DNA from: Yoonia sp. R2331
GTDB taxonomy: Bacteria; Pseudomonadota; Alphaproteobacteria; Rhodobacterales; Rhodobacteraceae
Assembly (NCBI RefSeq): GCF_041103235.1
Contig: NZ_JBGCUN010000001.1
Location: 2,046,001 to 2,110,000, forward strand
Direction: 5' to 3'
Length of the DNA: 64,000 nt
Below, in pieces: positions 2,852 to 17,944 of this stretch. The notes below the pieces were generated by a model. The model was not told the origin of the DNA. It saw only the letters and a program-made list of their open reading frames with translations, and made no database searches. Both the position numbers and the translations under genes were made by a program. Every line of letters starts with the position of its first letter. Position 1 is the first letter of the stretch.

Positions 2852-4369
2852 TTGGCTGACGCAGATTTAACAGGAAGCGTTCGGCCCAACATCACCACCA
2901 CGATGTCACGGCTTTCGCCAAGTCAAATGAAACACAAGAAGCAGTCACGTCGGTTCAACCGCGATGATCTCGAAGAGCAACGAAGTAAGTCAGAGAACGG
3001 TCGCCTGCAACGGACGATGAGCAAGACGATCTTCTCGCAGCGTTACAGGGACTATGTGATGAGCAACCCTGAGGGCCTGCTGCGGATGCCATATCTAATC
3101 CGTGAACTCAAAGCGACGAAGCGCATTCTGAAGGCCCTCAAGAAGCGTCTGCACAAACCTGAATGCAAAGCCCTCTACGACAAGATCAATATGCTGGACG
3201 GTGCCGCACACCCATCTTCGCCGTTGTGTGCCATTGCACGTCACCTGATGGCACGATCCATGCATCTCGATCTGGACAGCTTGTTCTTCGATGACTGTAT
3301 CGGAGAATGGACCATGGAAACCGTTGTTCATGGTGTCGTCCAATATATGGATCAGCAGGAAGCCATGATGGCTGATGCACGTGCCAGCTTTAGGACGATC
3401 CAGAAGGCCATGGAAGCTGCTGGTGCTGGCTATGTAGAGGTGGGTGCATTCGAACCTGATCGGCGTTCATTTGAAGATTACCATGACAGAGCAGCGTTAC
3501 AGCGTATGTGTGCGGAACTGCATTGGGATTTTCCAGAAACAGGTGGATTCGTCGTAAGCTCACATCGGCTGGTGCGGGTGCAAAGCAACACGCTTTACCA
3601 ATCCCTTTTGGATGCAGAGTTTCCTGGATATCGCCGCACACATCGCCAAGAGCTTGATCGGAACAAAACCATTCAGGAGAATTTGGACGACATACTGGCA
3701 TACATTTGGAAGCTGGAGGAATTGGTCACTGGTGCTGACGGCGACGTTGACATCAATGAAGGTGATTGTCGTCGGTGCATTCGTGTTGCTGCGCTGGGTA
3801 CGACCACTGAAGGCTTTGCAGGTCGTCAGCGTGAAGACGCCTTATGTGATTTTGCTTTGTACATGGATGATCGAGGACTAGATTTGTTTAAGATCAATCA
3901 TGTGAACACTTACGCCCGTGCATGGTACAATGAAGATGAACGTAAGATGTTCCAGTCTCAGGGTATCGAATTGATGGATGCACCTGGTGTCTCTTCTTGT
4001 GTTTTACACGGGCACTGCAATGACGCACCGCGTCGGTCTCTGTTTCAGGAAACACCCGCCTACAAACGGATGACCACGCATCAGAAAGCCAGACTTGTTT
4101 TCGCCCAACACGAGATGAAAACCCTCAACACCACCCGTGAGATTGGTCCGCTGATCCCAACTGGTGGCAAACTGGAGTTTGAGGACGGCACTGAAGGTTA
4201 TGCGATCCCTAGCATCAAATATGGTGCGCGATCTGATCTGCGAGAACGGAAAAATGAGCAAAATGAACGTGAGCTTCGAAGGCGAAAGGTCGACGCTCGA
4301 CGACGAAGACAGAAGCTATCAGGGGTTTCAAAGAAACCCGCGATTAGGCGTGGAGACTGTGACGCCTGA
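2852..4369 (+). CDS. Orphan 505-aa basic protein, function unknown
   Basis: A long, clearly protein-coding frame with no family I recognise. The first possible start is TTG; ATG codons at 2903 and 2927 are alternatives, and none has a convincing ribosome binding site. The N-terminus is very basic (KHKKQSRRFNRDDLEEQ), the middle is mixed alpha-helical with several Cys and His residues (DCRRCIR, CVLHGHCND), and the C-terminus ends in a strongly basic helix (RELRRRKVDARRRRQKL) suited to nucleic-acid binding. It is soluble, without signal peptide. Codon use is visibly less GC-rich than the core genes of this window. It sits between the palindrome/RHH regulatory region and the ATPase-nuclease gene. 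Confidence 0.7.
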   Translation: MADADLTGSVRPNITTTMSRLSPSQMKHKKQSRRFNRDDLEEQRSKSENGRLQRTMSKTIFSQRYRDYVMSNPEGLLRMPYLIRELKATKRILKALKKRLHKPECKALYDKINMLDGAAHPSSPLCAIARHLMARSMHLDLDSLFFDDCIGEWTMETVVHGVVQYMDQQEAMMADARASFRTIQKAMEAAGAGYVEVGAFEPDRRSFEDYHDRAALQRMCAELHWDFPETGGFVVSSHRLVRVQSNTLYQSLLDAEFPGYRRTHRQELDRNKTIQENLDDILAYIWKLEELVTGADGDVDINEGDCRRCIRVAALGTTTEGFAGRQREDALCDFALYMDDRGLDLFKINHVNTYARAWYNEDERKMFQSQGIELMDAPGVSSCVLHGHCNDAPRRSLFQETPAYKRMTTHQKARLVFAQHEMKTLNTTREIGPLIPTGGKLEFEDGTEGYAIPSIKYGARSDLRERKNEQNERELRRRKVDARRRRQKLSGVSKKPAIRRGDCDA

Positions 4370-4443
4370 ATTGAAGACACCGATCTCAACTTGTTGGCCG
4401 TGTTTCAGCAGGTGCATCGGCTGCTAAAGTCATCTGGTTCTTT

Positions 4444-4689
4444 GTGGATCAGCACTCAAGACTGACGGACGATGACTTGTATTGTGATGGTCGGCATCTC
4501 ATTGAGATACACCGTGATTGCGGTCACTTTTCACCGAACAGAATCCTACCTCATCTCAAAGGTCGAACCCGTTCACTGCGTACCAGACCATTGACCTATG
4601 ATGCTGAGTGGGAAGCTATGACCGACTTTCAAGGCATTGATCCAAACACGCATTATCATGATTTCGAAAGGTGGATGCTCAAGCCATAG
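4444..4689 (+). CDS. Small hypothetical protein, 81 aa, GTG start
   Basis: A short frame after the 505-residue gene, starting with GTG, without a visible ribosome binding site. It is polar and His/Asp/Arg-rich (YCDGRHLIEIHRDCGHF), resembling a small nucleic-acid-associated or metal-binding protein only in composition. No family recognised. It could be a chance frame; the composition and the same-strand position between two long genes favour a real gene only weakly. Confidence 0.35.
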   Translation: MDQHSRLTDDDLYCDGRHLIEIHRDCGHFSPNRILPHLKGRTRSLRTRPLTYDAEWEAMTDFQGIDPNTHYHDFERWMLKP

Positions 4690-4862: not shown

Positions 4863-6833
4863 ATGATTGTGGTTGAAACTGGCTGGTTGTCCGATCCCAT
4901 CGGACGGATCAATAATCTATCACTGGCCCCGTCGCCGAAAAATACCCTTCAACCGATGTTTGAAGCACTCATGAACTCGATTCATAAGATCCAGGAGCGT
5001 TTCGGTACAGACCGCCTGTCATCGGGTATCATTGATATTGAGATGACAGAAAATGAAGAAGGCTCCTACACAGGCTTCGTCATAACAGACAATGGTATCG
5101 GGCTTGATACCAACAACATGATTTCCTTTCGGAAGTCGGACTCCATGAAGAAGGTGAAGTTCGGCGGCAAAGGCGTGGGGCGGCTGCTGTGGTTGAAGGT
5201 CGCCGATAAGGTATCAATATCCAGCAACTACTTTGATGACGATGGCAGCAAATCGATCTCATTCGATTTTGTTGCTGATCCTGACGAACCGATTTCGAAA
5301 CTCAACCACCACACATCCAGTGGAGAGATCGGCACATCTGTGCGACTGACCCCACTAAAGACCGCGTACGCCCTTCACATCCCTGCCAAGCTAGAAACCG
5401 TTGCTGTCAGAACCGTTGCTCATTTCATCAACTATTTCGTCAATGTTGATTGCCCCAAGATCACGCTGATGGACTCTAAGAAGAGCATCGTATTGTTCGA
5501 CAAATTTACAGATGATGTTGTTCGAGATGGAACGTTTCCTGTCCAAGTCAGTGTGGACAGCGAAGAACGCAAATTGTCACTCAACTGCTTCTTAGTTCCG
5601 AAAAACTATTCGGATGACGAGAAGGGCACCAATGGGCTGTTCTTTGGTGCGCATGGTCGGGCTGTCAACCGCTACGATATGGACGGCGTGATCGGCTTGA
5701 AGGCGATTGACGGCAAATATGCGTTCTTCGGTTACCTGGAAGGCCCGATGCTGGATAGTTCGGTCAACGATACCAGAACCGAGTTCTCCCTAAGCGCCGA
5801 GACTATTGATGAACTCAAGCGTGAATGCATCACCCACATGCATGACTTCTTGAAGGTTGAGATCGACCTCGTGCGTGAGCGCCAGATTCAGACAATCGTC
5901 AATGTGCGCAATGAGCATCTGCGTTTCTACAACATCGCCAAGAACCCTGAAGAAATCGCGGATAAGCTATCCTTGTCTACGCAGAAGGATGAGGAAATTT
6001 TTGTAGAATTGTCCCGTCATTCCCTGCGTCAATACAAGAAGACCAGACGACAGTTTGCTGAGGCGAAAGCAAAGGACCGTCCAGACATCGAGCAGAAGGC
6101 CAAGGCTTATGTGTCGGAGTTGCAAGACGAGTCACTGTCATCTCTGGCTGAGTATATTTACAAGCGCAAACTGATCCTCGACATCTTCGAAGAGAAGACT
6201 GGTTTTGCCGACATTGACGCTGAAAAGGCTCACTACGAACGGGTCGTTCACGAACTCATTTGCCCATTGGGGACCACCAAAAGCGACCTTAGCTATGACG
6301 ACCATAATCTTTGGGTCATCGATGACAGGCTTGCGTTCTATTCTTACTTCAACTCCGACAAGCAAATTCAAGCCCAGTCAGCCAGCACGGACAAGCGGCG
6401 ACCTGATGTGACTCTGTTCGATCTTGGGATGGGCTTTGACAAAGCGTCTTCGCAAGAGCCGATAACAATCGTTGAGTTCAAACGACCGAAACGAAACGAC
6501 TACACGATGGCAGACAACCCTTTCACGCAGGTGCAAGACTATGTTGATGAGCTTCGCAAAGCTGGCGAAGCAACTCGATATGATGGGAGGCTGATTAGGA
6601 CCATTGAAGACCAGACGCCATTCATGTGTCAGATCGTGGCAGATGATACGGAGACGTTACGACAGGTGATGAAGCGTATCGGCGGATTCTACAAAAAAGC
6701 AGGGTCGAAGTCATACTACAGATGGGATGAAGGCTTTAAAATCTTTATGGAAGTAACATCATACACGGACTTAATTTCAGGTGCAAAGGCTCGACATGCA
6801 GCGTTCTTTGAGAAGCTTGGTGTGGCACCCTGA
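4863..6833 (+). CDS. GHKL (HATPase) protein fused to PD-(D/E)XK-like nuclease domain
   Basis: A 656-residue protein. The N-terminus is a Bergerat-fold (GHKL) ATPase: N-box E34-x3-N38 (FEALMN), DNGIG at residues 76-80 and GGKGVG at 101-106 are all intact, so ATP binding is expected. The middle (about 190-480) is a transducer-like and helical region. The C-terminus carries D515 in RRPDVTLFD and E538-F-K540 in IVEFKRPKR, the spacing of a PD-(D/E)XK nuclease core. MutL/MORC-like GHKL ATPases are known beside restriction-modification genes. The ATG at 4863 lies only one base after the AAGGA at 4857-4861; the in-frame GTG at 4869 has ideal spacing and may be the true start. Function as a DNA-cleaving defence effector is inference. 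Confidence 0.8.
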   Translation: MIVVETGWLSDPIGRINNLSLAPSPKNTLQPMFEALMNSIHKIQERFGTDRLSSGIIDIEMTENEEGSYTGFVITDNGIGLDTNNMISFRKSDSMKKVKFGGKGVGRLLWLKVADKVSISSNYFDDDGSKSISFDFVADPDEPISKLNHHTSSGEIGTSVRLTPLKTAYALHIPAKLETVAVRTVAHFINYFVNVDCPKITLMDSKKSIVLFDKFTDDVVRDGTFPVQVSVDSEERKLSLNCFLVPKNYSDDEKGTNGLFFGAHGRAVNRYDMDGVIGLKAIDGKYAFFGYLEGPMLDSSVNDTRTEFSLSAETIDELKRECITHMHDFLKVEIDLVRERQIQTIVNVRNEHLRFYNIAKNPEEIADKLSLSTQKDEEIFVELSRHSLRQYKKTRRQFAEAKAKDRPDIEQKAKAYVSELQDESLSSLAEYIYKRKLILDIFEEKTGFADIDAEKAHYERVVHELICPLGTTKSDLSYDDHNLWVIDDRLAFYSYFNSDKQIQAQSASTDKRRPDVTLFDLGMGFDKASSQEPITIVEFKRPKRNDYTMADNPFTQVQDYVDELRKAGEATRYDGRLIRTIEDQTPFMCQIVADDTETLRQVMKRIGGFYKKAGSKSYYRWDEGFKIFMEVTSYTDLISGAKARHAAFFEKLGVAP

Positions 6834-6868
6834 ACTTGAAGACGCAACATCATCGGACCTCAAGAAAA

Positions 6869-7600
6869 TTATCTGATGACATCAAAGACCCACAGATACG
6901 ACATGGTCTTCCGTGCGTGTTTTTGTGTGGACCAGTGGTTGTTCGGCATCCTACTGGTCGCATCCAATACGAACAGATCACGCCCCCGCAGACCCAATGC
7001 CTCAGCATCCTGTAGCAGGTGTACATGCAGGAACCGTTGTCGTGGCCCCTCCACGGTATCTTTGCACTTCACCCATATCTGTCGCCTGGCGACCCGTGCA
7101 GCCTCCAGAAGCCCGTCTTGGTAAAGTTGACGAACGCCTTTGTAGTCGATGCCCTTTGTCGTCTCCGCATTGCGGTAGCGGTCATCTGACATGTGGTTGC
7201 CAGGCCAGACGAGGTATGGCGGATCAAACACCACTATATCGAATGACTGGTCGGCATATGGCAAGCTGCGAAAATCGTACGGACGGTCTGGTACTGTGAG
7301 CAGGTCCGATCCCGTGATCTTCAGATGAGGCGTTTTCCTCCAGAACGCACCTTTGCCATAGGTCACATCAGCAATGGTGATGTCGGGATCAGCAGCATAT
7401 AGACTGGCCACGTTCTTCATCAGATCAGCGTTGTTACCCCGCACCAGAGCTTCGACGGGTTTCTCTTTGATTTTCCGTCGACGTCGGTAGTCAGCCTGCT
7501 TGCATCGGTCTGAACAGAACTTGCGATCAGATCGATGGCTACTAGGTGCAAGTTCGGCTTTGCAATGCCGACAAGCCGTAACGGAAATGGATACGTTCAT
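6869..7600 (-). CDS. Zinc-finger DNA methyltransferase (DPPY type)
   Basis: A 243-residue SAM-dependent methyltransferase. Cys10, Cys13, Cys29 and Cys33 (CRHC, FCSDRC) form an N-terminal zinc-finger. A motif-I-like region follows (IADVTYGKGAF, about 76-86), and DPPY at residues 126-129 is the catalytic motif IV of N6-adenine or N4-cytosine enzymes. There is no separate target-recognition domain, so specificity may lie in the finger. It converges on the GHKL-nuclease gene with a 35-base gap and follows the resolvase gene on the same strand by 52 bases. A perfect 10-bp hairpin encloses its start codon (7576-7609). A small ribosomal or tRNA methylase is less likely given DPPY and the context. 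Confidence 0.8.
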   Translation of the reverse strand: MNVSISVTACRHCKAELAPSSHRSDRKFCSDRCKQADYRRRRKIKEKPVEALVRGNNADLMKNVASLYAADPDITIADVTYGKGAFWRKTPHLKITGSDLLTVPDRPYDFRSLPYADQSFDIVVFDPPYLVWPGNHMSDDRYRNAETTKGIDYKGVRQLYQDGLLEAARVARRQIWVKCKDTVEGPRQRFLHVHLLQDAEALGLRGRDLFVLDATSRMPNNHWSTQKHARKTMSYLWVFDVIR

Positions 7601-7609
7601 CCGTTACGG
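7576..7609 (-). promoter_or_regulatory. Inverted repeat enclosing the methyltransferase start codon
   Basis: CCGTAACGGA at 7576-7585 is the exact reverse complement of TCCGTTACGG at 7600-7609, giving a 10-bp stem with a 14-base loop; each arm itself contains a palindrome (CCGTAACGG, CCGTTACGG). The start codon occupies 7598-7600, at the edge of the stem, and no separate Shine-Dalgarno sequence is seen. This could be an operator for autoregulation or an mRNA hairpin limiting translation. Confidence 0.5.
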
Positions 7610-7652
7610 ATAGGTCTGGATCGGCGGATGTGCAACTGGGTTCGAGGGGTCT

Positions 7653-8213
7653 TCACCGCACCGACGCTGGTAGCCATCTGTATAGTGTCGGGACTGAGAC
7701 ACCCATGGCCTCTGCCACGTCTCTCACGGCAGTACCATTAGTCAGGAGTTCTTTCGCCGCCATAACCTTCTCTTGGGTCATCTGACGAGGCCGACCTCCA
7801 ACACGCCCCTTTGCTCGTGCCGCCTTTAGACCAGCTTGGGTGCGTTCTCGGATTAGGTCACGTTCAAATTCTCCGATGGCACCGACCACGTGGAACATCA
7901 AACGCCCAGAGCTAGTGTTGGTATCAATGGCCTCAGTTACGCTCTGGAACTCGATGCCATTTGCCTTCAGGTGGTCCATGATTTCAATGAGGTGTGGGAG
8001 GCTTCGTGCAACCCGATCCAACTTATAGACTACCAAAGTGTCACACGAATCAGGACGTAGGTATCCCAAGACCTCGGCAAGCACGGGGCGATCTTTCCTT
8101 GAACCCGACGCCACCTCAGTGAAGATGCGTTCACACCCTGCCGCCTTGAGTGCTGCAACCTGTGCATCATGGGTCTGTGTATCTGTGCTAATCCGCGCAT
8201 AGCCAACCTTCAT
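7653..8213 (-). CDS. Serine recombinase (resolvase/invertase family)
   Basis: A 186-residue small serine recombinase. The catalytic serine is Ser9 in GYARISTD, followed by the family motifs VVYKLDRVARS (about 62-72) and GRLMFHVVGAIGEFERDLI, the RER/K-rich dimer helix, and a C-terminal helix-turn-helix (AVRDVAEAMGVSVPTLYRW). Length matches Tn3-type resolvases and Hin-type invertases. The start has AGGAG upstream. No transposase gene is present beside it, so it may be a lone resolvase of the island or a DNA invertase. The 163-base region upstream (8214-8376) would be the place for a res site, but I could not delimit subsites. Confidence 0.92.
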   Translation of the reverse strand: MKVGYARISTDTQTHDAQVAALKAAGCERIFTEVASGSRKDRPVLAEVLGYLRPDSCDTLVVYKLDRVARSLPHLIEIMDHLKANGIEFQSVTEAIDTNTSSGRLMFHVVGAIGEFERDLIRERTQAGLKAARAKGRVGGRPRQMTQEKVMAAKELLTNGTAVRDVAEAMGVSVPTLYRWLPASVR

Positions 8214-8348: not shown

Positions 8349-8378
8349 AACCGACCGTTTGTGAGAAACGAAGCGGTT
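8349..8378 (-). terminator. Possible hairpin at the end of the periplasmic-protein gene
   Basis: Nested inverted repeats AACCG/CGGTT (8349-8353, 8374-8378) and CGTTT/AAACG (8356-8360, 8366-8370) around a five-base loop overlap the stop codon of the next gene. There is no T-run, so intrinsic termination is doubtful. The inner part resembles the island palindromes (GTTT-N5-AAAC). Confidence 0.3.
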
Positions 8379-8898
8379 AGTGTGGCGACCGCCCAGTCGC
8401 GATCATGAGATGGTGCTGTTGGTGATGCGCACCGATTGTCATCAATCCAAAGAATCCCAATCCCAGCACTTGGTTTAGCTCTTCATCTGACCCGACCTGG
8501 ACCAGCATCGATGCGCCATCATCTATTTCCCCAGCGGTGACGGTCCAATCCGATGATCCCTGCAACATCGGGCTATGTGCCAACACCATGCGTCTGATGG
8601 ACGATGCTACCACATCATCTCCCGTGACTGTGAACGTCACACTCAACTCATCGACCTTTCGCTCAACCGATGCCCTCGTCGTCACGTTGTCCATATCCAC
8701 GAGGTGATCACGCAGTGCTTTGATATCTACCTGCGTCCAGTCCGTGTCTGTGTCGTCACGCAGCAATTTCACGATCTCAGAAATCGCTGCGAACTGGGAC
8801 TGACCCGCTTCGTTTGGTGACCCCGACGTATGCGCATGTTGTGCCATGGCGTTGGATGCGACGAACATCATGGCTGCTGATAAAAGTCCTAGCTTCAT
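8377..8898 (-). CDS. Predicted periplasmic protein with His-rich ends
   Basis: A 173-residue protein with a clear signal peptide (MKLGLLSAAMMFVASNAMAQ, cleavage after AMA). The mature N-terminus starts QHAHTSG and the C-terminus contains GAHHQQHHLM, so metal binding is plausible. The middle is helical with aspartates (LLRDDTDTDWTQVDIKALRDHLVDMDNVT). I recognise no enzyme signature. It is divergent from a Crp/Fnr regulator and forms the left end of the metal-resistance block, which suggests a role in metal (probably copper) handling in the periplasm; that role is inference. Ribosome binding site AGGAG is present. Confidence 0.7.
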   Translation of the reverse strand: MKLGLLSAAMMFVASNAMAQHAHTSGSPNEAGQSQFAAISEIVKLLRDDTDTDWTQVDIKALRDHLVDMDNVTTRASVERKVDELSVTFTVTGDDVVASSIRRMVLAHSPMLQGSSDWTVTAGEIDDGASMLVQVGSDEELNQVLGLGFFGLMTIGAHHQQHHLMIATGRSPH

Positions 8899-8947
8899 TG
8901 AATCCTCCTATTTCTTGATAACCCTATCCAACTTCACTCTGGCCGCT

Positions 8948-8963
8948 TATGATCTCAATCATA
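8948..8963. promoter_or_regulatory. Crp/Fnr-type dyad (TATGAT-N4-ATCATA)
   Basis: A perfect 6-bp-arm dyad, TATGAT-CTCA-ATCATA, ends on the start codon of the Crp/Fnr gene. The TGAT-N4-ATCA core equals that of FNR-type sites. Its position fits negative autoregulation and control of the divergent periplasmic-protein gene. Confidence 0.55.
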
Positions 8964-9529
8964 TGATTTCTGATCCTTTCTCCCATCTACCCAGGACTGC
9001 GTGTCGCGCAATTGACATGCAAAAAGGTGACGTGCTGTTTCGCCAAAACCAGACAACATCAGGACTTTACCGTGTCGTCTCTGGGTGCGTGACGCTGAAA
9101 CGTACTGGGCTGGGTGGCGACACTTTGACCCTTCATAGGGCGGTTTCGGGCGGGCTGTTTGCTGAGGCATCAGTCTTCTCAGAGACCTACCATTGCGATG
9201 CGATTTGCACTGAAGCTGGGAGCGTCACGAAGATCGCAAAGGCAGATGTCAAAGCCACATTGCAATCCAATCCAGAGTTCTTCGAAGGCTTCACAAGGTT
9301 GCTTGCAATTCAGGTCCAACAGTACCGCGCACATATCGAGTTGCTGGCAATCCCGTCGGCCAAAGACCGCATCTTGGCTGCGGTTCAGGCAGGGTACTTC
9401 GATGCTACGGTGACCGAGTTGGCCACCCGCATCAATCTCAGTCAAGAAGCCTGCTATCGCGCACTGCGGGCATTGTGTGATGACGGTCGTGTGGTTCAAA
9501 CAGGACGTGGACAGTACAGCCTAACGTAA
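8963..9529 (+). CDS. Crp/Fnr-family transcriptional regulator
   Basis: A 188-residue regulator: an N-terminal cyclic-nucleotide-binding-type beta barrel (KGDVLFRQNQTTSGLYRVVSG), a dimerisation helix (about 95-125) and a C-terminal winged helix (VTELATRINLSQEACYRALR). The N-terminal cysteine cluster of oxygen-sensing FNR is absent, so an iron-sulfur cluster is unlikely. I chose the ATG at 8963 because the domain begins there; the frame extends 39 codons further upstream through the divergent promoter region. An FNR-like dyad abuts this start. It is divergent from the periplasmic His-rich protein and precedes the mercury-type MerR gene. Confidence 0.85.
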   Translation: MISDPFSHLPRTACRAIDMQKGDVLFRQNQTTSGLYRVVSGCVTLKRTGLGGDTLTLHRAVSGGLFAEASVFSETYHCDAICTEAGSVTKIAKADVKATLQSNPEFFEGFTRLLAIQVQQYRAHIELLAIPSAKDRILAAVQAGYFDATVTELATRINLSQEACYRALRALCDDGRVVQTGRGQYSLT

Positions 9530-9557
9530 TCATTCAGATCAGTTGGCTGATAGTCAG

Positions 9558-9965
9558 CTAAAGTGGCACCGTTGGAGCCTCGCTCATCAAGCTATCCAGC
9601 ATCGGGCATGAAGATGTCCCCTCATCACAACTCGCAGACAGGCGCTGTAAGGCCGCACGAAGTCGTTCAAGACTATCAATCTTGGCATTGATCGCGACTA
9701 GTTGGTCCTCGGCCATGCTCTTCACTTCCTTACAAGAACGACCTTGCTGGTCGTTCAATGAAAGCAATGTTTGGATGATCGACATCGGAAACCCAAGATC
9801 ACGGCAACGCTTTACGAAACGCAACTTTGCAATTTCATCAGCGGTATACAGGCGTCGCCCTGCCGCCGAGCGATCAGGTTTCGGAACAAGCCCCTCACGT
9901 TCGTAATAACGGATCGTCTCAATGTGGACGCCGCTCTTCTGCGAAGCTTTCCCGATGGTAAACAT
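9558..9965 (-). CDS. merR: MerR-family regulator, mercury type
   Basis: A 135-residue MerR protein: N-terminal winged helix (FTIGKASQKSGVHIETIRYYE), long dimerisation helix, and C-terminal metal loop. Three cysteines sit where Hg(II)-sensing MerR has them: one in GRSCKEVK and two in ASCDEGTSSCPM. The start at 9965 is fixed by the family N-terminus and an AGGAG upstream; a longer frame runs to 10094 but crosses the promoter. It is divergent from MerF and faces a textbook MerR promoter with a 19-bp spacer (9971-10001). It probably represses and activates merF and represses itself. Confidence 0.9.
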   Translation of the reverse strand: MFTIGKASQKSGVHIETIRYYEREGLVPKPDRSAAGRRLYTADEIAKLRFVKRCRDLGFPMSIIQTLLSLNDQQGRSCKEVKSMAEDQLVAINAKIDSLERLRAALQRLSASCDEGTSSCPMLDSLMSEAPTVPL

Positions 9966-9970
9966 TTCTC

Positions 9971-10001
9971 TTGCTCCTGTAGTCGCTACAGGAGCTATGA
10001 C
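9971..10001 (+). promoter_or_regulatory. MerR-type promoter/operator for merF
   Basis: -35 TTGCTC (9971-9976) and -10 TATGAC (9996-10001) are separated by 19 bp. A perfect dyad with 10-bp arms (GCTCCTGTAG / CTACAGGAGC, 9973-9995) fills the spacer. The over-long spacer with a dyad is the mark of MerR-activated promoters. Confidence 0.85.
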
Positions 10002-10072
10002 TGGATGGCGGGTGCCAATGCAAATCAAACCTTGGCTATAACCGCACAGTCGGTACGACGAGGGATAGCAAT

Positions 10073-10279
10073 ATGAAAAATAAACTATTGGCATTTGGCA
10101 TTGGGGGAACGCTGCTTGCTGCGCTGTGTTGCTTTACGCCGTTGCTACCAATCGTTTTGACCGCACTCGGTCTTACTAGGTTATTGGGTGTGCTGTATAA
10201 CGACGCAGTTTTGCTGCCAATTCTGGCAGGGTTTCTTATTCTTACGGGGTACGCGATATGGCAACGACGGAAACAGTAG
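10073..10279 (+). CDS. merF: MerF-like mercury transport membrane protein
   Basis: A 68-residue inner-membrane protein with two transmembrane helices (about 5-28 and 37-60). The first helix holds the vicinal cysteine pair in ALCCFTPLL, the Hg(II)-binding motif of MerF, and the end of helix two (GYAIWQRRKQ) also matches the family. A second Cys pair common in MerF tails is absent. It would carry Hg(II) across the inner membrane to a cytoplasmic reductase; no merA is in this window. It is driven by the MerR promoter and overlaps the next gene by 22 bases. Confidence 0.85.
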   Translation: MKNKLLAFGIGGTLLAALCCFTPLLPIVLTALGLTRLLGVLYNDAVLLPILAGFLILTGYAIWQRRKQ

Positions 10280-10482
10280 TTGTTCTTGAGTCCACACTGA
10301 CCTGTCCCGACTGTGGGCATGTCGAAACTGAAATGATGCCAACAGATGCGTGTCAGTGGTTTTATGAATGCAAGTCATGCCAAACTGTACTCAAGCCACT
10401 GAGCGGTGACTGCTGCGTTTACTGTTCGTATGCGACGGTTCCTTGCCCGCCGATACAAGAGGGCAAGTCCTGTTGTGGATGA
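10258..10482 (+). CDS. GDCCVxC-motif cysteine-rich small protein
   Basis: A 74-residue protein with a zinc-ribbon-like N-terminus (LTCPDCGHVET and YECKSCQTVL) followed by the signature GDCCVYCSYATVPCPPIQ and a terminal CC. The GDCCVxC family is small, sometimes contains selenocysteine in other organisms, and is often found beside mer or arsenic genes; its biochemical role is unknown. Here all positions are cysteine codons. It overlaps merF by 22 bases, so the two are co-translated and share MerR control. A metal- or thiol-handling role is inferred. Confidence 0.85.
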   Translation: MATTETVVVLESTLTCPDCGHVETEMMPTDACQWFYECKSCQTVLKPLSGDCCVYCSYATVPCPPIQEGKSCCG

Positions 10483-10500
10483 AGCGACTCCACTGAATTG

Positions 10501-10926
10501 TTAGTGGGGAGGGTTCCTGCTGGCTTGGACTTCGCGTTCCCGCTCAGACCAAGTTGATCTGATGTAGGCGAGGATATCCCATATCTCATCATCTGTGAGT
10601 GTTTCGCCGAAACCTGGCATCCCGCTGTTGAACCCAGTTACACCCCTGATCTCCAATGCAGCAGCGCCACCGAGTTTGGTATACTCGAACAGCAGTTCAT
10701 CATCATGGTGCCACGTGTGACCTGTCCCGTCATGCGGCGGGGCTGGAAGCACACCATCGGCGTTCGGGGATTGCCAGTTCGGCTGTCCCTCAAGGTTGGC
10801 ACCGTGGCAGGATGCGCAGTTGTCTGAATAAAGGCTTTGACCCGCAACGATGTCGCGGTGATCCCAGTTGTGATCAGCGGCAACTGGGGATGCCAAAGAC
10901 AGCAAGATTGGGATCACCCACCTCAT
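10501..10926 (-). CDS. Periplasmic c-type cytochrome of the copper operon
   Basis: A 141-residue class I cytochrome c. The ATG at 10926 overlaps the stop codon of the upstream multicopper oxidase gene (ATGA), which fixes the start; a signal peptide follows (MRWVIPILLSLASPVAA). One heme motif CASCH is near residue 35, the distal methionine is probably in SGMPGFGETL, and the last helix (DDEIWDILAYIRSTW) is typical. It is the last gene of the copper operon. It could pass electrons from the oxidase's reaction; this partnership is inference. Confidence 0.88.
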   Translation of the reverse strand: MRWVIPILLSLASPVAADHNWDHRDIVAGQSLYSDNCASCHGANLEGQPNWQSPNADGVLPAPPHDGTGHTWHHDDELLFEYTKLGGAAALEIRGVTGFNSGMPGFGETLTDDEIWDILAYIRSTWSEREREVQASRNPPH

Positions 10927-12221
10927 GCCACATTCACCCATGTTCGCATCCCGCCAACGGCGTGGCTGAGCATGTGGCAATGGATCAACCAGCGACCAGG
11001 GTTATCGAAGACACAGATGACATCGCGGCTTTCACCAGCGTTTACCAGAGTTGTGTCTCGCAGATCGCCCAAGGCCCCACTCTCATCAACCTCGTAGAAG
11101 TGGTGACCATGCAGGTGGATGCCGTGCGGGAACGAGGTGTCGTTTACAAATGTGATCCGCACAGTCTCGCCATTTTGGAATGATCCGAACGGGTCGCCTT
11201 GTAGGTCCGAAACGTTGTTGAAGGCCCAGATATTGTCGCCATCGTGGCGACCGCCCATTGCACCACCCATCATCGTCAACGTCAGATGTTGCGTGGGATC
11301 AGTAGGTGTTGGCAGATTGGGCGGTGACAGAGCCATGATCGGCCCATCCACCCTATCCGTATTTGTGCCACTCACAGCCAGATCAGCCAACTGATATGGT
11401 CCCTGACGGGTCAGCATATCAAACCCAACGGGGCCAGTGACATCAACGATCAAGTCTGCCCGTTGTGCAGGTGCGAGGGTAAGCTTGGCCATAGGACGTG
11501 GCTCCGATAGAGCCATGCCATCCAAGGCCACAACCAACCCGCTGACGCCGCTTACCGCTACAGGAAAAATGCGATTCGTCGCTGCATTAATCAACCGAAA
11601 CCTAACACGATCTCCAGTCTTCACCTGATCTTGGGACAGGAACGCACGGGCGAAATTCCCCATGTAACCGCCATGGGCGACACTGTGCATATCGGTAAAC
11701 TCTTTGGACAGGCTACCATCTTCCTGCATCTGCCAATCTGCCATCAACACGGTGATGTCGTGATCGATATCTGGGGGCGTTTCGTCCTCAACAATCAACG
11801 GTCCCATCATGCCACGTGCGACCTGTTCATGAGAAATGTAATGGGAATGATACCAATAGGTGCCTTCGTCTGGCGGTATAAAGCTATAGGTTTTGGTGTC
11901 GGAGGGTTCGATCAACTCTTGCGTCAGCATCGGCACACCATCCATCTGGTTTTCCAGCCTGATGCCGTGCCAATGCACTGCGGTGCCTTCTTCAAGACCG
12001 TTCTCAACATCGATGTTCACACGCTCACCACGACGCACCCGCAGTTCGGGACCTGGCATTGATCCGTTGAAGCCCAGCATGGATGTCACACCACTTCCAT
12101 CTGGTAGGATTTGTTGCGTCACCGCTTCTGCCTTCAATCGTAACGTATCTTCGGCTGCGAATATGGGCATAGGTAAGATCGCGGTGGCTGAAACGGAGGC
12201 CAAGAAGTATCGTCTATTCAT
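10923..12221 (-). CDS. Multicopper oxidase, Tat-exported (copper resistance type)
   Basis: A 432-residue three-domain cupredoxin oxidase. A twin-arginine signal (NRRYFLASVSATAIL) is at the start. The four copper-binding segments are present: HWHG, YWYHSH, HGIHLHGHHF and HCHMLSHAVGGM with a final Met as type-1 axial ligand. It probably oxidises Cu(I) or phenolics in the periplasm, like CueO/CopA. I chose the ATG at 12221, which has GAGG upstream and the Tat motif directly after; the ATG at 12233, overlapping the CopD stop (ATGA), is the alternative. It lies between copD and a cytochrome c gene in one operon. Confidence 0.92.
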   Translation of the reverse strand: MNRRYFLASVSATAILPMPIFAAEDTLRLKAEAVTQQILPDGSGVTSMLGFNGSMPGPELRVRRGERVNIDVENGLEEGTAVHWHGIRLENQMDGVPMLTQELIEPSDTKTYSFIPPDEGTYWYHSHYISHEQVARGMMGPLIVEDETPPDIDHDITVLMADWQMQEDGSLSKEFTDMHSVAHGGYMGNFARAFLSQDQVKTGDRVRFRLINAATNRIFPVAVSGVSGLVVALDGMALSEPRPMAKLTLAPAQRADLIVDVTGPVGFDMLTRQGPYQLADLAVSGTNTDRVDGPIMALSPPNLPTPTDPTQHLTLTMMGGAMGGRHDGDNIWAFNNVSDLQGDPFGSFQNGETVRITFVNDTSFPHGIHLHGHHFYEVDESGALGDLRDTTLVNAGESRDVICVFDNPGRWLIHCHMLSHAVGGMRTWVNVA

Positions 12222-12229
12222 GTGGTGCC

Positions 12230-13078
12230 TCATGCTGGCAGAGTCAGGTGTGTTGTCAAAACAGCGGTCGTGCCAAGCACAGCAAGGATGATCAGCCATT
12301 CAACCGATATAGATTTGGAGAGATGGCTTGCAGCGGCTGAATCACCTGCTCGGAGCGCGGGAATGAACCGAAATTTATTGGCCGCAGCCAACCCCAGCAG
12401 AGCAACTATGAGAAGAACCTTGATGATCAATGCTTGCCCGTATCCAGTCCCGATAAGTGCGGTGAACGACCCAACAAGCTGGTAGCCCATGTAACCACCA
12501 ACGATGATCAGCACGGGGACTGTGGCGGTCGCAACAACACCAAATCGATGCCCCACGTTCGCAGCCATGTTAAAGGTGTCGGGTAACGATGCCAGGCGTT
12601 TCAATGGAGTGAGAACACCGATCCACAGGGCGACGGTCAGCAAATGCAACGTCAAAGCGATGTCGAGCAGCGTCGTGTCTCGGCTAGAGACGTGTCCTAC
12701 GTGATCGAATGACCAGATCGCCACGACTCCACCGAGAGCCGAGACCCAAGCTCCAACACGCCCCATGAACAAGCCAGCGATCAACAGGCCGAGACCCACC
12801 AAACGCAATAGCAGTGCCGTACCGACAGGGGTCGTCCATAGCAGGCCCAGCATCTCTGGGTCAGTCATATCGCTGAGATCACCCGTCAGGTTGGCTCCGC
12901 TTAATGAGAAGGCAAGGATGGTCGCCGCCAACCCTAGAACAGCGAATGCTGCGGCCAAACCACGTGTGCGATCTAGCCGAAACATCAGCGTCGCCATGAC
13001 AGTGCCTGTCGCAGTCATCACGCCAAGGTAGAGGGCAAATTTTGTGACGATGGCCGCCAGACCGAACGCATCAGGCAT
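12230..13078 (-). CDS. copD: CopD-family copper resistance membrane protein
   Basis: A 282-residue integral membrane protein with about eight transmembrane helices. The CopD domain with its histidines is in the centre (WSFDHVGHVSSRDTTLLDIALTLHLL), followed by TVALWIGVLTPL, a family hallmark. CopD works with periplasmic CopC in copper uptake or handling. It starts two bases after the CopC stop and its stop overlaps one possible oxidase start, so it is the middle of the operon. Confidence 0.9.
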   Translation of the reverse strand: MPDAFGLAAIVTKFALYLGVMTATGTVMATLMFRLDRTRGLAAAFAVLGLAATILAFSLSGANLTGDLSDMTDPEMLGLLWTTPVGTALLLRLVGLGLLIAGLFMGRVGAWVSALGGVVAIWSFDHVGHVSSRDTTLLDIALTLHLLTVALWIGVLTPLKRLASLPDTFNMAANVGHRFGVVATATVPVLIIVGGYMGYQLVGSFTALIGTGYGQALIIKVLLIVALLGLAAANKFRFIPALRAGDSAAASHLSKSISVEWLIILAVLGTTAVLTTHLTLPA

Positions 13079-13080
13079 CG

Positions 13081-13422
13081 TTATTCGACAGTGAAGCTAA
13101 AGGTGCCGTTCAGGGCATGGCCATCTACACCCAGCCCACGCCATTCGATCACATAGATTCCTGCTCCCATGTCGTGCATTGGCAAGGCAAACTCCTGTGT
13201 GAACGCCGTTTGTTCGCCAAGGTCCATGTCCATACTGTGTGTGTCGGCATGTGTGATCGCGATCCGCGTCAGGCGGATGTCACCTTTGAAGTTCATCAAG
13301 ACTTCGGTCGGCATCTCTGTGACGATGGCCTCGTTAGCTGGTGTCGTTGCGTCGAGGGGCGAGTGTGCCATCGCGCCCGTTGCCCAAATCCCGATCATGC
13401 CTGCAAGTAGAATAGCTTTCAT
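13081..13422 (-). CDS. copC: CopC periplasmic copper-binding protein
   Basis: A 113-residue protein: signal peptide (MKAILLAGMIGIWATGAMA) and a CopC beta-barrel. The mature protein begins with histidine (HSPLDATTPA), the N-terminal copper ligand of CopC, and further histidines occur in ITHADTH, PMHDMG and VDGHALNG. The ATG at 13422 was chosen because the signal peptide starts there. It binds copper in the periplasm and presumably hands it to CopD, encoded two bases downstream. Confidence 0.92.
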   Translation of the reverse strand: MKAILLAGMIGIWATGAMAHSPLDATTPANEAIVTEMPTEVLMNFKGDIRLTRIAITHADTHSMDMDLGEQTAFTQEFALPMHDMGAGIYVIEWRGLGVDGHALNGTFSFTVE

Positions 13423-13456
13423 TGTTGTTTCCAGTCTCTTGTTTTGTCTTTGGAGA

Positions 13457-13894
13457 TCAATTGATCCCGTTGGCACGTTGCAGTTCCCGAATGTAGGCGA
13501 TGATCATCGTGACATCGCCCCGTGTTACCCCCGCAACAGGGGGCATGTCGCCAAACGGCCAATGGTGTCCACGAACGCCCACAGCAGCGGCCCGTTGGAA
13601 CGCCTCATCGCCGTGATGGCTTGGTTCATAGATAACGTGGACGAGCGGCGGTGCGACGCCATCTTGGCCCGCAGCGTTCCCCCCGTGGCAAGCCGCGCAT
13701 TTGGCCTGATAGGCGAGTTGCCCGATCTGGGCATTCTGCGACAGCGTGTCAGGCAGCAGGACATTTGCAAGAACTCCGTCTTCCATGGCGATGGCAGCGT
13801 TTGTCGTTGTGGTGTGCGGTACTGTGGTGGGCCACATCGCGTAGCCCACACCACCTGCAACCAAAATAGCAGCAATAGCGATAGTCGATTTCAT
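13457..13894 (-). CDS. Periplasmic or membrane-anchored c-type cytochrome
   Basis: A 145-residue class I cytochrome c. An N-terminal hydrophobic segment (MKSTIAIAAILVAGGVGYAM) is a signal or anchor. CAACHGG is the heme motif; the distal methionine lies in FGDMPPVAG, and DVTMIIAYIRELQ is the final helix. The ATG at 13894 has AGGAG 11 bases upstream; a GTG at 13903 is too close to it. It lies 34 bases upstream of copC in the same operon, so with the second cytochrome at the operon's end the copper system has two heme proteins. Confidence 0.87.
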   Translation of the reverse strand: MKSTIAIAAILVAGGVGYAMWPTTVPHTTTTNAAIAMEDGVLANVLLPDTLSQNAQIGQLAYQAKCAACHGGNAAGQDGVAPPLVHVIYEPSHHGDEAFQRAAAVGVRGHHWPFGDMPPVAGVTRGDVTMIIAYIRELQRANGIN

Positions 13895-13967
13895 TGAAGG
13901 CACTGCTCCTCACATCTTTCTGCCATCGCTAAGCCTTCCAGTTGGTGGAGGGTCAAACGCTTTTTTA

Positions 13968-14723
13968 TCACAGCTTTGAGAGCATCCAGATTGCCATACC
14001 GATCATCATCAGGTTCTCGGTAAGCGACACGAACCCAAGTGGAACTTTGCTGTCACCGCCGACACAGGCGCACTTGAGTTCGCGTTTGTCGATGTAGACC
14101 GCCTTGAACACACTGATCGCGCCGATGCTTGCCACAAACAAAGCGGCTGGTGCAGACAACCAGGTGAGAACGCCCGCCATCATGAGCAGCCCCGCTCCCG
14201 TCTCAACGAAAGGATAGATATATCCATATCGAACCCACCGCTGAGCCAACAGGTCATAATTCAGGAACATGGTGGCGAACCGTTCAACACCTTGCAGTTT
14301 CTGTAGACCCAACAAGACCATTGAAATCGAAATAAACAACTCAACCGTCCGCCCTGTGAACATGGTGCCAAGGATGAGCCAGGTGACTGCAACAGCCATC
14401 AAAGCAGCAACCGTGAACAAGGCAACCACGGGCTTATAGGTCGTGGCATCTTCAGCCTTGGTGGTTTTCCCAAAGTATGCATTCAGATCATCGAAGCCAC
14501 CAATGCGGGTTTCGCCTATGAATGTCTGTGGCGTCGTCTTTACATCATGCTTGGCTTTGAACGCATCAACCTCGTCACGGCTGGTGAGGTGGCGATCATC
14601 AACTTGAAAGCCCTGACGTTCCAGCAAGTCTTTCGACTTCAATCCGTACGGACACATGTGATCGGTCATCACCATCCGATAGAGGGTCGCAGTTTTGGTG
14701 GCGGTATCTTTGGGCATGGTCAT
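13968..14723 (-). CDS. Glutaredoxin-MauE (DoxX-like) fusion membrane protein
   Basis: A 251-residue fusion. Residues 10-85 are a glutaredoxin fold with active site CPYG (a single cysteine) and the cis-proline region TTPQTFIGETRIGG. Residues 98-251 hold four transmembrane helices of the MauE/DoxX type, with a CxC pair in LKCACVGGDSKV before the last helix. MauE-like proteins pass reducing equivalents across the membrane. It is the first gene of the copper operon and its promoter (14785-14815) is CueR-like, so a role in thiol supply to copper proteins or cytochrome c maturation is inferred. Confidence 0.85.
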   Translation of the reverse strand: MTMPKDTATKTATLYRMVMTDHMCPYGLKSKDLLERQGFQVDDRHLTSRDEVDAFKAKHDVKTTPQTFIGETRIGGFDDLNAYFGKTTKAEDATTYKPVVALFTVAALMAVAVTWLILGTMFTGRTVELFISISMVLLGLQKLQGVERFATMFLNYDLLAQRWVRYGYIYPFVETGAGLLMMAGVLTWLSAPAALFVASIGAISVFKAVYIDKRELKCACVGGDSKVPLGFVSLTENLMMIGMAIWMLSKL

Positions 14724-14784
14724 ACTTTCCTTTCACAGGTGCGGCCATCCTTTCGAACGGCACCCTTGAAATTCATTCATCATC

Positions 14785-14815
14785 AACCTAATCTCTCCAG
14801 TAACTGGAAGGTCAA
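14785..14815 (-). promoter_or_regulatory. CueR-type promoter of the copper operon
   Basis: Read on the minus strand, -35 TTGACC (14815-14810) and -10 TAGGTT (14790-14785) are 19 bp apart. The spacer has a CCAG-TTA-CTGG-centred dyad, and the -35 side continues TTGACCTTCC, as in CueR-controlled copA promoters. It drives the glutaredoxin-MauE gene and the copper operon. Confidence 0.82.
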
Positions 14816-14827
14816 GAGGTGAGTTCG

Positions 14828-15211
14828 GTGAATATTTCGGCTGCATCAAAGGCTGCGGGTCTCCCCGTCAAAACAGTGCGTTACTACGCTGACATTGGCC
14901 TCGTTGAGGCTCCGTCGCGTTCTGAAGCAGGGTATCGCACCTATGACGATGCTTCTGTGCGAAAGCTCTTGTTCATCCGAAGATCACGCGAGTTTGGCTT
15001 CACCATCGAAGAGTGCCGTGAACTACTCGGACTATACCAGGATCAGGACCGCACCAGCGCAGAAGTGAAATGCATCGCATCCAAGCGTTTGGAAGAGATC
15101 GAAGAGAAGCAACGTGAACTTCAATCGCTTCATGATGAGTTAGCTTACCTGGTGACATCTTGCCGTGGTGATCATCGCCCCGATTGTCCGATCATCGATT
15201 ATCTCGGTTAA
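14828..15211 (+). CDS. cueR: CueR-type MerR-family copper regulator
   Basis: A 127-residue MerR protein. N-terminal winged helix (NISAASKAAGLPVKTVRYY), dimer helix, and the metal loop SCRGDHRPDCPIIDYL, close to the CueR loop with two cysteines. The position that is Cys in Hg-sensing MerR is Ser (RTSAEVK), as in Cu(I) sensors. The GTG at 14828 has AGAGG eight bases upstream and is preferred to the GTG at 14819, which overlaps that sequence. It is divergent from the copper operon, whose promoter has the expected 19-bp spacer. Confidence 0.88.
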   Translation: MNISAASKAAGLPVKTVRYYADIGLVEAPSRSEAGYRTYDDASVRKLLFIRRSREFGFTIEECRELLGLYQDQDRTSAEVKCIASKRLEEIEEKQRELQSLHDELAYLVTSCRGDHRPDCPIIDYLG

Positions 15212-15278
15212 CCGTTGATCTAAGGCAAAGCCTTTGGGTCTTGGATGAGCGCACAATGGTCAACGAGTCCCTTACGCA

Positions 15279-15830
15279 TCAAATGAACCTCCTGACCTTG
15301 GCAGCGTAATCGGCATATTGCTCACCGTAGGTCCGTCTCAACCAAGGCTCTTCCGCAAATGGGGCTACGATGAGAACCGATACTGACACCAACCCGATCA
15401 CGAATGCCGAGGGCGATGCTGACATGATTACCCACCCCCAAACGATCATGATATCGGATACATATTGCGGGTTACGGGAATACCGATACAGCCCTCCTGT
15501 TCGTAGCACCCCAGAAGCACCACCAGTTTGATCGACGCCAAACTTCAGCACTTCCGACCACACACCCAGATTGCCAAGGGCGATCAACGCCCCTCCTAAA
15601 CCGTATCTGATCGCAGCGGGAATGGTCCAAGAACCCCACTCCATCACACCAACGCCAATCATGGTGCCGAACAGGGTGAACGTTGGCACCCAAACCAAAA
15701 TCGGTGTCAGTGTTGTATATTGCTTCGGAGGCCACAGTCGGTGTTCGGGATAAGCGATGGACCAGACAATCGCTGCCAAGGTCCCGAACGCAATAACGAT
15801 CCCCATGGTAGTAAACAGAACGACCATCAT
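15279..15830 (-). CDS. ICMT-like membrane methyltransferase (CzcN-like context)
   Basis: A 183-residue membrane protein with five or so helices and the isoprenylcysteine carboxyl methyltransferase/PEMT signature: GLYRYSRNPQYVSDI, then PFAEEPWLRRTYGEQYADYAAKVRRF. The start at 15830 overlaps the stop of the CDF gene (ATGA). Proteins of this family occur in metal-resistance clusters (CzcN is one), but their substrate there is unknown. It is the last gene of the operon under the third MerR regulator. Confidence 0.87.
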   Translation of the reverse strand: MMVVLFTTMGIVIAFGTLAAIVWSIAYPEHRLWPPKQYTTLTPILVWVPTFTLFGTMIGVGVMEWGSWTIPAAIRYGLGGALIALGNLGVWSEVLKFGVDQTGGASGVLRTGGLYRYSRNPQYVSDIMIVWGWVIMSASPSAFVIGLVSVSVLIVAPFAEEPWLRRTYGEQYADYAAKVRRFI

Positions 15831-16462
15831 GTTGCCCCATGGATGTGCTGCATCGCATCTCGACGTTCCTGCAACGCCTGACGCACGATCTGGAACGCCG
15901 ACGACAGGAACAACGTAGCCATGACCCCTGCAACGATCAGGTCGGGCCAACCTGTCGCTGTCCCCCAGACGCCGAAGGCGGCCAAGACAACTGCTACATT
16001 GCCGATGGCGTCGTTGCGTGAACACAGCCAGACTGATCTGACGTTGGCATCTCCGTCCTTGTATCGAACCAGCAGGAGAACGCTGGCCAGGTTTGTTGCC
16101 AGTGCCATAACACCTACGACCCCCATGATGCCCGCTTCAGGCACTCCAACGTAGAATACGCGATAAAGGGTTGATCCGAAGACCCAGAGGCCCATCAAGA
16201 GGAGGCTCAACCCTTTTGCCAATGCAGCATTCGTGCGCACCTGTATTGACGCACCAATGACTGCCAATGAAATGCCGTAGGTCAGGGCATCGCCCAAGAA
16301 GTCCAATGCATCGGCCTGAAGGGCCTGAGACTGGGCATAGTGACCCGCCGACATCTCGACCACAAACATCGCGGCGTTCAAGGCGATGACGATCCATAGG
16401 CGGCGTTTGTAATCAGTAGAGACGCCTTCGAACTTGACCTCATGTCCACAGCAACCCGACAT
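15827..16462 (-). CDS. Cation diffusion facilitator (Zn/Cd/Co efflux)
   Basis: A 211-residue CDF transporter with six transmembrane helices. Metal-site residues are in helix two (ADALDFLGDALTYG) and helix five (CSRNDAIGNVAVVL). The N-terminus carries GCCGHE, a possible metal-capture motif, and the cytoplasmic C-terminal domain common in longer CDFs is missing or reduced to a short His-containing tail. The ATG at 16462 has AAGGAGG upstream and overlaps the preceding stop by one base (TGATG); a GTG directly before is the alternative. It would export divalent metals from the cytoplasm. Confidence 0.9.
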   Translation of the reverse strand: MSGCCGHEVKFEGVSTDYKRRLWIVIALNAAMFVVEMSAGHYAQSQALQADALDFLGDALTYGISLAVIGASIQVRTNAALAKGLSLLLMGLWVFGSTLYRVFYVGVPEAGIMGVVGVMALATNLASVLLLVRYKDGDANVRSVWLCSRNDAIGNVAVVLAAFGVWGTATGWPDLIVAGVMATLFLSSAFQIVRQALQERRDAMQHIHGAT

Positions 16463-17232
16463 CACACAGCCTCCTTCACATTAGCCTGTTGAGGGGGCAA
16501 TGCAGTTGCAGGACCTTTAGGGATGTTCGGCACTAGGCCACGACGCAGGCGTTCCACTCGTGCATTCATCCAGTGGCGGATCACGAGCTTGTACAGCATT
16601 CCTTTGACGCCCCGCAGTTGCCGATGTTCCGCGTAAAAAGCATCTGGTGATGCGAACGTCCCCAACTCGGCGTTGATCCCCGTTCTCTGGATATATGTGT
16701 CACGCCCAGACCAGCCGACATCAGGGGCATGGAGGTTGTCCGTGCCAGCACCATAGCCGCAGATTCTATCCTGATCGGGGAAAGCCCTTTGCAGGGCAGC
16801 CAGCACTGCATCATCGAGGATGAAGCCCTCAAGGGTGACCCACCTCCCGTCCAAAAAGACTTCCACCCATGAGTGCAGGATGTTGGTCGGTGCGAGGGGG
16901 TAGACGATTTCGGGAACGATGCCGCGTTGCAGCGACTTGTGGATCGTGAAGCCATGGAAGCGGCACGGCAAATCCATGGCCCGCAGCAATGCCATCAGTA
17001 GGGTGGTCTTTGTATTGCACTGACCGAAGCCATCCCTCAGCACGTCTGAGGCTGGCAAGGTGTCGTCGCTGTTGTAGCCAAATGCGATTTCATTCCTGAC
17101 AAACTCATATGCGGCCTCTGCCCGTTCAGCGGGTTCAAATTTGCACCACCCACGATCCGCAATCAGTGACTGGATCGGGCCTGCTGAGAAATTGAGGAGT
17201 GGGGTCTGTTGGGTCGTTGGATCAGAGGACAT
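16462..17232 (-). CDS. Transglutaminase-like cysteine protease-fold protein
   Basis: A 256-residue cytoplasmic protein (no signal peptide) with a transglutaminase-like core. The catalytic Cys is in DGFGQCNTKTTLLMALLR, the His in NILHSWVEVFLDGRWVTLEGF and an Asp follows in ILDD. Members act as proteases, peptidases or amidases; the substrate is unknown. It is the first gene of the operon with the CDF and ICMT-like genes, driven by a MerR-type promoter with 19-bp spacer. The ATG at 17232 is preferred to one nine codons upstream. Its presence in a metal operon is unusual. Confidence 0.82.
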   Translation of the reverse strand: MSSDPTTQQTPLLNFSAGPIQSLIADRGWCKFEPAERAEAAYEFVRNEIAFGYNSDDTLPASDVLRDGFGQCNTKTTLLMALLRAMDLPCRFHGFTIHKSLQRGIVPEIVYPLAPTNILHSWVEVFLDGRWVTLEGFILDDAVLAALQRAFPDQDRICGYGAGTDNLHAPDVGWSGRDTYIQRTGINAELGTFASPDAFYAEHRQLRGVKGMLYKLVIRHWMNARVERLRRGLVPNIPKGPATALPPQQANVKEAV

Positions 17233-17261
17233 ACGAATCGCCTTTTCTTTGTGTCCCACCC

Positions 17262-17843: not shown

Positions 17844-17866
17844 TTTGATTCCAGGGTCGCCCACCA
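17844..17866 (+). other. 3'-tRNA-like sequence, probable right attachment site (attR) of the island
   Basis: TTTGATT followed by CCAGG, GTCGCCC and ACCA has the shape of a tRNA T-loop, 3' T-stem, 3' acceptor strand and CCA end. The upstream bases (CTGAA instead of a pairing T-stem arm) do not complete a tRNA, so only the 3' end is present. That is what a tRNA-integrating element leaves at its far end. An acceptor of GTCGCCC would pair with GGGCGAC, as found for example in tRNA-Lys. Islandlike genes end here and core-like genes begin. Confidence 0.65.
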
Positions 17867-17944
17867 TTTTCACCCTTGAAGGCCCACCAGACGGAGCGGC
17901 GATTTCCCGCAACGAAAACAATGCATTATGCGCGCATGAGCGCA

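Follow-up and report, generated by a model that had tools for sequence, protein, structure and literature searches.

The window is a stretch of 64,000 nucleotides (C1:2046001-2110000 of a 4.03-Mb genome) from Yoonia sp. R2331, a probably marine member of the Rhodobacteraceae. It contains on the forward strand, at positions 4863-6833, a gene for a 656-residue protein in which a GHKL ATPase is joined to a PD-(D/E)XK nuclease, the architecture known from paraMORC3 proteins and from VcSduA of Vibrio cholerae. The ATPase and its S5/middle (transducer) domain occupy residues 8-337 (4884-5873, forward strand), and a Shedu-like PD-(D/E)XK nuclease domain with E459, D515, E538-x-K540 and Q556 occupies residues 421-650 (6123-6812, forward strand). 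On the reverse strand lie a small phage-type DPPY DNA methyltransferase of 243 residues with an N-terminal four-cysteine zinc finger (6869-7600), the gene of which converges on the nuclease gene at a distance of 35 bp, and a serine resolvase/invertase of 186 residues (7653-8213). The original prediction had described these genes as a candidate new defence module on a tRNA-type island, and the positions of the three open reading frames (ORFs) and all residues that it named, those of the methyltransferase included, are correct. The gene at 4863-6833 probably encodes a paraMORC3-family restriction nuclease that acts as a single gene, is carried on plasmids and islands and has the same build as VcSduA. 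This reading is based on the sequence, the predicted folds and the conservation of both active sites, on purifying selection and the mobile context, and on the lack of a conserved methyltransferase partner.

In the GHKL domain E34, N38, DNGIG (D76-G80) and GGKGVG (G101-G106) are present and in register with those of 13 homologues. D515, E538 and K540, the residues of the PD-(D/E)XK core, are present, and E459, H463 and Q556 are further conserved residues of the nuclease domain that had been missed. In the 43 sequences that were aligned (the protein of the window, four genome loci and 38 viral-contig loci, after removal of near-duplicates and of loci that were partial or very divergent), E34, N38, D76, G78, G80, G101, G104, G106, E459, H463, D515, E538 and K540 are invariant, so that the catalytic residues of both sites (E34, N38 and D76; E459, D515, E538 and K540) occur in 43 of 43; N77 and Q556 are conserved in 90 % or more. 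Homologues are co-linear with the ATPase-nuclease over nearly its entire length. The nonsynonymous divergence (dN) of the window gene is 0.12 from the homologue loci L007, L008 and L009 (81-82 % identical) and 0.21 from L011 (71 % identical), all four comparisons showing saturation at synonymous sites, and between the nuclease genes of L008 and L009 dN is 0.016 and the synonymous divergence (dS) 0.55 (dN/dS ~0.03). The gene is whole and under purifying selection, and the fusion is not a chance observation.

A structure search with a model of the protein found the GHKL plus S5 fold: residues ~8-337 align with extended N-terminal stretches of chains from Hsp90, MORC2/3/4 and topoisomerase VI, stretches that take in the S5-type domain, and in the model such a domain follows the GHKL domain. 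Pfam matched the protein with HATPase_c_3 (expect value (E) 6e-5) and HATPase_c (0.016), both under their cut-offs, and a PDB sequence search returned one chance row and GHKL-type rows. The window protein had no match in PADLOC-DB 2023 or PHROGs at E up to 1, and among 14 members of the family PADLOC-DB gave just weak TmtA, CARF and PtuB rows, for two, one and one members, respectively. The model of the C-terminal domain has a strand and helix order that fits the restriction-endonuclease fold, carrying E-D-ExK, and its structural rows are to Shedu, EndoMS-like, BspD6I, FokI and McrBC proteins. When this domain was modelled alone, SduA/Shedu chains were the top three of 998 chains re-aligned; in the Foldseek search itself no match reached E 0.001, and Shedu chains were absent from the 50 best rows and surfaced only upon re-alignment. 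Comparison by hhalign scored the C-terminal domain at 95 % against a Shedu profile over 177 columns, with E459, D515, ExK and Q556 in register, and the N-terminal domain, as a control, at 0.2 %; against a profile of the five firmest Shedu rows the score of the C-terminal domain fell to 89 % (165 columns). Profile depth matters, because against single sequences the scores were 1.8 % for Shedu, 0.6 % for an HsdR N-terminus and 44 % for the restriction endonuclease of L023. The HSDR_N family (type I restriction R subunit) was considered for the nuclease domain and rejected, its Pfam match at residues 401-564 being sub-threshold (0.0018) and its hhalign match limited to a 47-column core. By structure search and profile comparison together, the predicted C-terminal fold is of the PD-(D/E)XK type, a point that the original prediction had wanted checked.

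The nuclease domain is predicted to have the Shedu fold, and by fold and profile comparison it shares that fold and the E..D..ExK..Q motif with SduA of Escherichia coli (8ps4) and Bacillus cereus (8ti9), from which the window protein differs in its N-terminal part, a GHKL clamp. A further difference, from VcSduA and Shedu alike, is that the Pfam model PF14082 (SduA_C, DUF4263) matches none of the 14 paraMORC3-type members scanned at E up to 0.1, and its scan of the window's own genome (G000) misses the ATPase-nuclease gene though a separate canonical Shedu gene is found there. That canonical gene, over the Pfam cut-off, lies elsewhere in the genome at G000:C1:2519439-2519921 (L119). According to a 2026 review, E. 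coli Shedu binds DNA ends via an N-terminal clamp, and its avoidance of self DNA is unresolved (PMC12904381).

The paraMORC3 family was defined by Iyer, Abhiman and Aravind in 2008 by a GHKL domain, an S5 domain and a C-terminal restriction-fold domain with E-D-ExK, and its members lack the S5 motif specific to MORC; it is spread by lateral transfer, and a subset stands alone without conserved neighbours (PMC2292703). The window protein resembles it in its GHKL and S5 domains, intact ATP-binding motifs, C-terminal E-D-ExK domain, sporadic spread and solo context, and among the features compared (the MORC-specific S5 motif was not one of them) none was found that distinguishes the two. VcSduA, from the WASA strains of V. 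cholerae, is a GHKL-Shedu nuclease reported in Nature Microbiology in 2025 and placed by its authors in Shedu type I-D. On its own it makes E. coli resistant to T1-like phages, and it also defends V. cholerae from X29; protection is lost in the E27A and K557A variants, and the growth curves are consistent with direct restriction in hosts that survive (PMC12137116). The likeness of the window protein to VcSduA lies in the architecture, in the single gene and in catalytic positions that are matched in gammaproteobacterial homologues, the residues of the Vibrio and Acinetobacter plasmid homologues equivalent to E27 and K557 being E27 with K556 and K558. It differs in belonging to another bacterial class, and the comparison with it was made by residue positions. 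The earlier statement that no such system had been described is outdated, because paraMORC3 (2008) and VcSduA (2025), as their papers present them, already share the GHKL-nuclease architecture.

Homologues of the nuclease were found by tblastn in 55 of 72,556 plasmid records, 50 of them with a query coverage of 80 % or more, in hosts from the Pseudomonadota, the Bacteroidota, Rhodococcus, Fusobacterium and others; 28 of the 55 records are typed conjugative. Others occur in one phage record and at six loci in genome contigs, and the nearest named homologue loci are from Rhodobacteraceae or their kin (Ruegeria, Tateyamaria, Tabrizicola). A profile scan of viral contigs yielded 47 nuclease-family loci, and a scan of them with the single ATPase-nuclease protein gave no match. 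Neighbourhoods were viewed in 12 of the 55 plasmid records. Several plasmid homologues, in an observation made with neither count nor control, adjoin type I restriction operons, a Shedu gene, or genes of the cyclic-oligonucleotide-based anti-phage signalling system (CBASS) type, of abortive infection (Abi) or of toxin-antitoxin systems; the homologue follows or overlaps a type I restriction operon in L006 and L018 and a large restriction endonuclease gene in L023. Such defence-type neighbours fit a defence role for the nuclease homologues. In L011 a lone nuclease copy stands between two genes judged by eye to be of core type.

Four of the homologue loci have further features. On the Vibrio fluvialis plasmid (L006:6601-9995) a canonical Shedu gene (SduA_C, 1e-25) overlaps the paraMORC3 gene by 4 bp, and the pair sits directly after the type I restriction operon; relatives of this Shedu gene were sought in viral contigs, and the V. 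fluvialis gene was used as a DNA query against E. coli genomes, with none found in either. In Salinivibrio (L018) the paraMORC3 gene is directly after an S-subunit gene, without a Shedu gene. In phage vB_RanS_PJN03 (ON245412.1, L024) a paraMORC3 homologue annotated as an amidase, probably a mis-annotation, adjoins an integrase. Directly after the nuclease gene of L009 (L009:9966-11462) is a gene for a 498-residue protein that has no Pfam match at E up to 0.1 and contains, by eye, an ExK-like motif.

The protein could also be an element-maintenance or DNA-processing enzyme, similar to MutL or topoisomerase VI, that serves the island or plasmid in conjugation, repair or the killing of competing elements. 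The carriage of homologues by plasmids (55 records, 28 of them conjugative) and viral contigs (47 loci), and a GHKL fold common to topoisomerase VI and MORC, are in keeping with such a function. However, presence is sporadic, a single-protein search of 41 genomes having matched the window's own only, no fixed position relative to transfer genes was seen in the 12 plasmid loci viewed, and the characterised relative, VcSduA, restricts phages. A maintenance function is accordingly considered unlikely.

The methyltransferase has, as predicted, DPPY at residues 126-129 and a four-cysteine finger (C10-x2-C13 ... C29-x3-C33). Its residues 34-240 match phrog_24333 (E 5e-36) and are what it has in common with the phage DNA methyltransferases of that group, from which it differs by the extra N-terminal zinc finger; the finger is kept in the copies of L010 and of genome G377 and was not seen in L072-L074. 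Relatives were found in three plasmid records, 15 phage records and three viral contigs, and in six of 295 same-family genomes (its own included), two of these by short matches only.

In the original prediction the two genes formed a minimal pair in which the methyltransferase protects self DNA, that is, a two-gene system resembling restriction-modification with the methyltransferase marking self DNA and the ATPase-nuclease cutting unmarked DNA. The convergence of the genes, 35 bp apart, is compatible with this, and the sole observation that favours it is in L010, where a 2.95-kb block (the larger part of the nuclease gene together with the methyltransferase and resolvase genes) has 95 % identity, with different DNA on the far side of the resolvase; this block is explained by one recent transfer that the two contexts share. 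Against it, the methyltransferase adjoins the nuclease in one of 78 homologue loci, namely L010 (nuclease fragment 99 % identical), and in none of the 46 loci with at least 1.5 kb on both sides, the other 32 having less than 1.5 kb on one or both sides. The count of 78 excludes the window's own copies (L013, L081), L017 (the same gene as L015) and weaker or short matches (L091-L105 and unfetched rows), many of them apparently ordinary GHKL proteins, and its loci are not all independent, because some are near-identical (such as L001 and L002). A crude motif count of ORFs with PP[YFW] within 3 kb gave 14 of the 78 loci and was not used as evidence. The absence is reciprocal. The nuclease is missing from all nine methyltransferase loci examined (eight distinct, L076 and L106 being one place, and five of the nine shorter than 4 kb), its profile had no match in the five other methyltransferase-bearing genomes (two of which were recognised by short methyltransferase matches), and the methyltransferase had no match in nine further genomes of the same family that carry the nuclease whole, in two pieces or nearly whole; as a control, both queries matched in the window's own genome.

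The related islands are similarly divided. The sister island in L008 keeps the nuclease (74 % DNA identity) and the resolvase (81 %), with the segment between them missing, and so is without the methyltransferase; the island of G377 keeps the methyltransferase (78 % DNA identity) and the helix-turn-helix (HTH) region (67 %) without the nuclease, the methyltransferase being at 87 % and that genome having no profile match to the nuclease family. These comparisons show a methyltransferase that moves on its own, and it is probably independent cargo that arrived separately and may shield the element from host restriction. As an obligate partner it was rejected on the count of one locus in 78, on L008 without it and on G377 without the nuclease. 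VcSduA, moreover, functions alone. Protection of self DNA by the methyltransferase is therefore not supported, the minimal pair fails on the rare co-occurrence that the original prediction had itself named as grounds for giving it up, and a restriction-modification-like system is highly improbable. Also highly improbable is that in this lineage the methyltransferase was newly recruited beside a normally solitary GHKL-Shedu nuclease, adding modification-based self-protection to a defence that senses DNA structure; the block has moved together once already (the window and L010). The nuclease-methyltransferase pairing calls for no new system.

The label of a tRNA-type island is correct, because a tRNA-Tyr, an integrase, an exact repeat and empty sites are found on the contig and in related genomes, partly outside the window; the island is not visible inside the window alone, which has no tRNA and no Rfam match. 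The objection that there is no tRNA, and so no tRNA island, holds for the window only and was rejected for the contig, which shows both the tRNA-Tyr and the repeat. The tRNA-Tyr is at L107:10642-10725, just upstream of the window, and the gene of a tyrosine integrase of 540 residues (L107:10820-12442, forward strand) begins outside the window and has its 3' part at positions 1-441. On the right the island ends with 22 bp, at 17847-17868, that repeat the 3' end of tRNA-Tyr exactly, the left copy being 19,142 bp upstream, outside the window, and the island is 19.1 kb long. The repeat consists of the last 20 tRNA bases and two more, and the next-best place in the searched stretch has at least 5 mismatches in 20. 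Empty sites were found in three of five other genomes of the genus examined: in G584, of the same species, the tRNA-Tyr is followed directly by the right-flank DNA, and in G001 and G002 the right-flank homology starts ~34 and ~27 bp after it; the G004 stretch has neither tRNA nor repeat copy. A repeat copy in G003 (L125, G003:C4:118000-124126) has no tRNA in front and suggests another insertion at the same hotspot. The G+C content is 52 % for the island within the window, 49 % for the nuclease gene and 60 % for the flanking core DNA. With a tRNA and integrase at one end, a direct repeat at the far end and empty sites, the element has the features of an integrative island.

Other genes of the island include the resolvase (Pfam Resolvase, E 9e-45; 76 % identical to the L008 copy) and an HTH regulator at 457-879 on the reverse strand with relatives in L008 (62 %) and in the G377 island. 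Upstream of the nuclease gene, on the forward strand, are an orphan 505-residue protein (2852-4369) with a weak L008 relative (22 % over 295 residues) and an 81-residue ORF (4444-4689), the relative of which is the C-terminus of one 483-residue ORF of L008; the upstream gene (2852-4689) may be split, because its L008 relatives form that one ORF. Such a split neighbour would suit a non-functional passenger gene in decay, an explanation with next to no credibility for an ATPase-nuclease that has a full-length frame, its catalytic residues and a dN of 0.12-0.21 with saturated synonymous sites against four homologues. At ~8377-17259 the island carries a metal-handling cluster, recognised by eye, of a multicopper oxidase, CopC/CopD-like proteins, a cytochrome c, two MerR regulators and a cation-efflux-like protein, and the DNA from 10503 to 15210 of this cluster is 94 % identical beside the L008 nuclease copy.

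The finding is real and is largely explained: on a tRNA-Tyr island the gene encodes an alphaproteobacterial paraMORC3 member that, by analogy, is most likely VcSduA-like in action. On the same analogy the ATPase-nuclease is probably an active solo phage-restriction nuclease. Of the original prediction the fusion and the mobile island stand, the phage-defence role is probable by comparison with VcSduA, and self-protection by the methylase falls away. Hsp90, MORC and topoisomerase VI form dimers that shut like a clamp once ATP is bound. As in those GHKL proteins, two protomers would dimerise via the GHKL/S5 part and ATP binding would close the clamp, which may engage invading DNA, such as the linear DNA of a phage or the ends of that DNA; on closure or hydrolysis the C-terminal Shedu-like nuclease would be released and would then cut the engaged DNA. 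Discrimination between self and non-self would come from the clamp and not from methylation, and the outcome, by the example of VcSduA, would be direct restriction and not cell death. The methyltransferase and the resolvase would be other cargo or backbone of the tRNA-Tyr integrative island.

With this gene, an anti-phage architecture that was validated recently is found to reach into a branch of the Alphaproteobacteria that, in the members scanned, is named neither by the Pfam Shedu model nor by PADLOC-DB 2023. Given a profile made from this branch, tools that annotate defence systems could detect such genes, and the window protein would allow a test of which DNA feature is sensed by the GHKL clamp.

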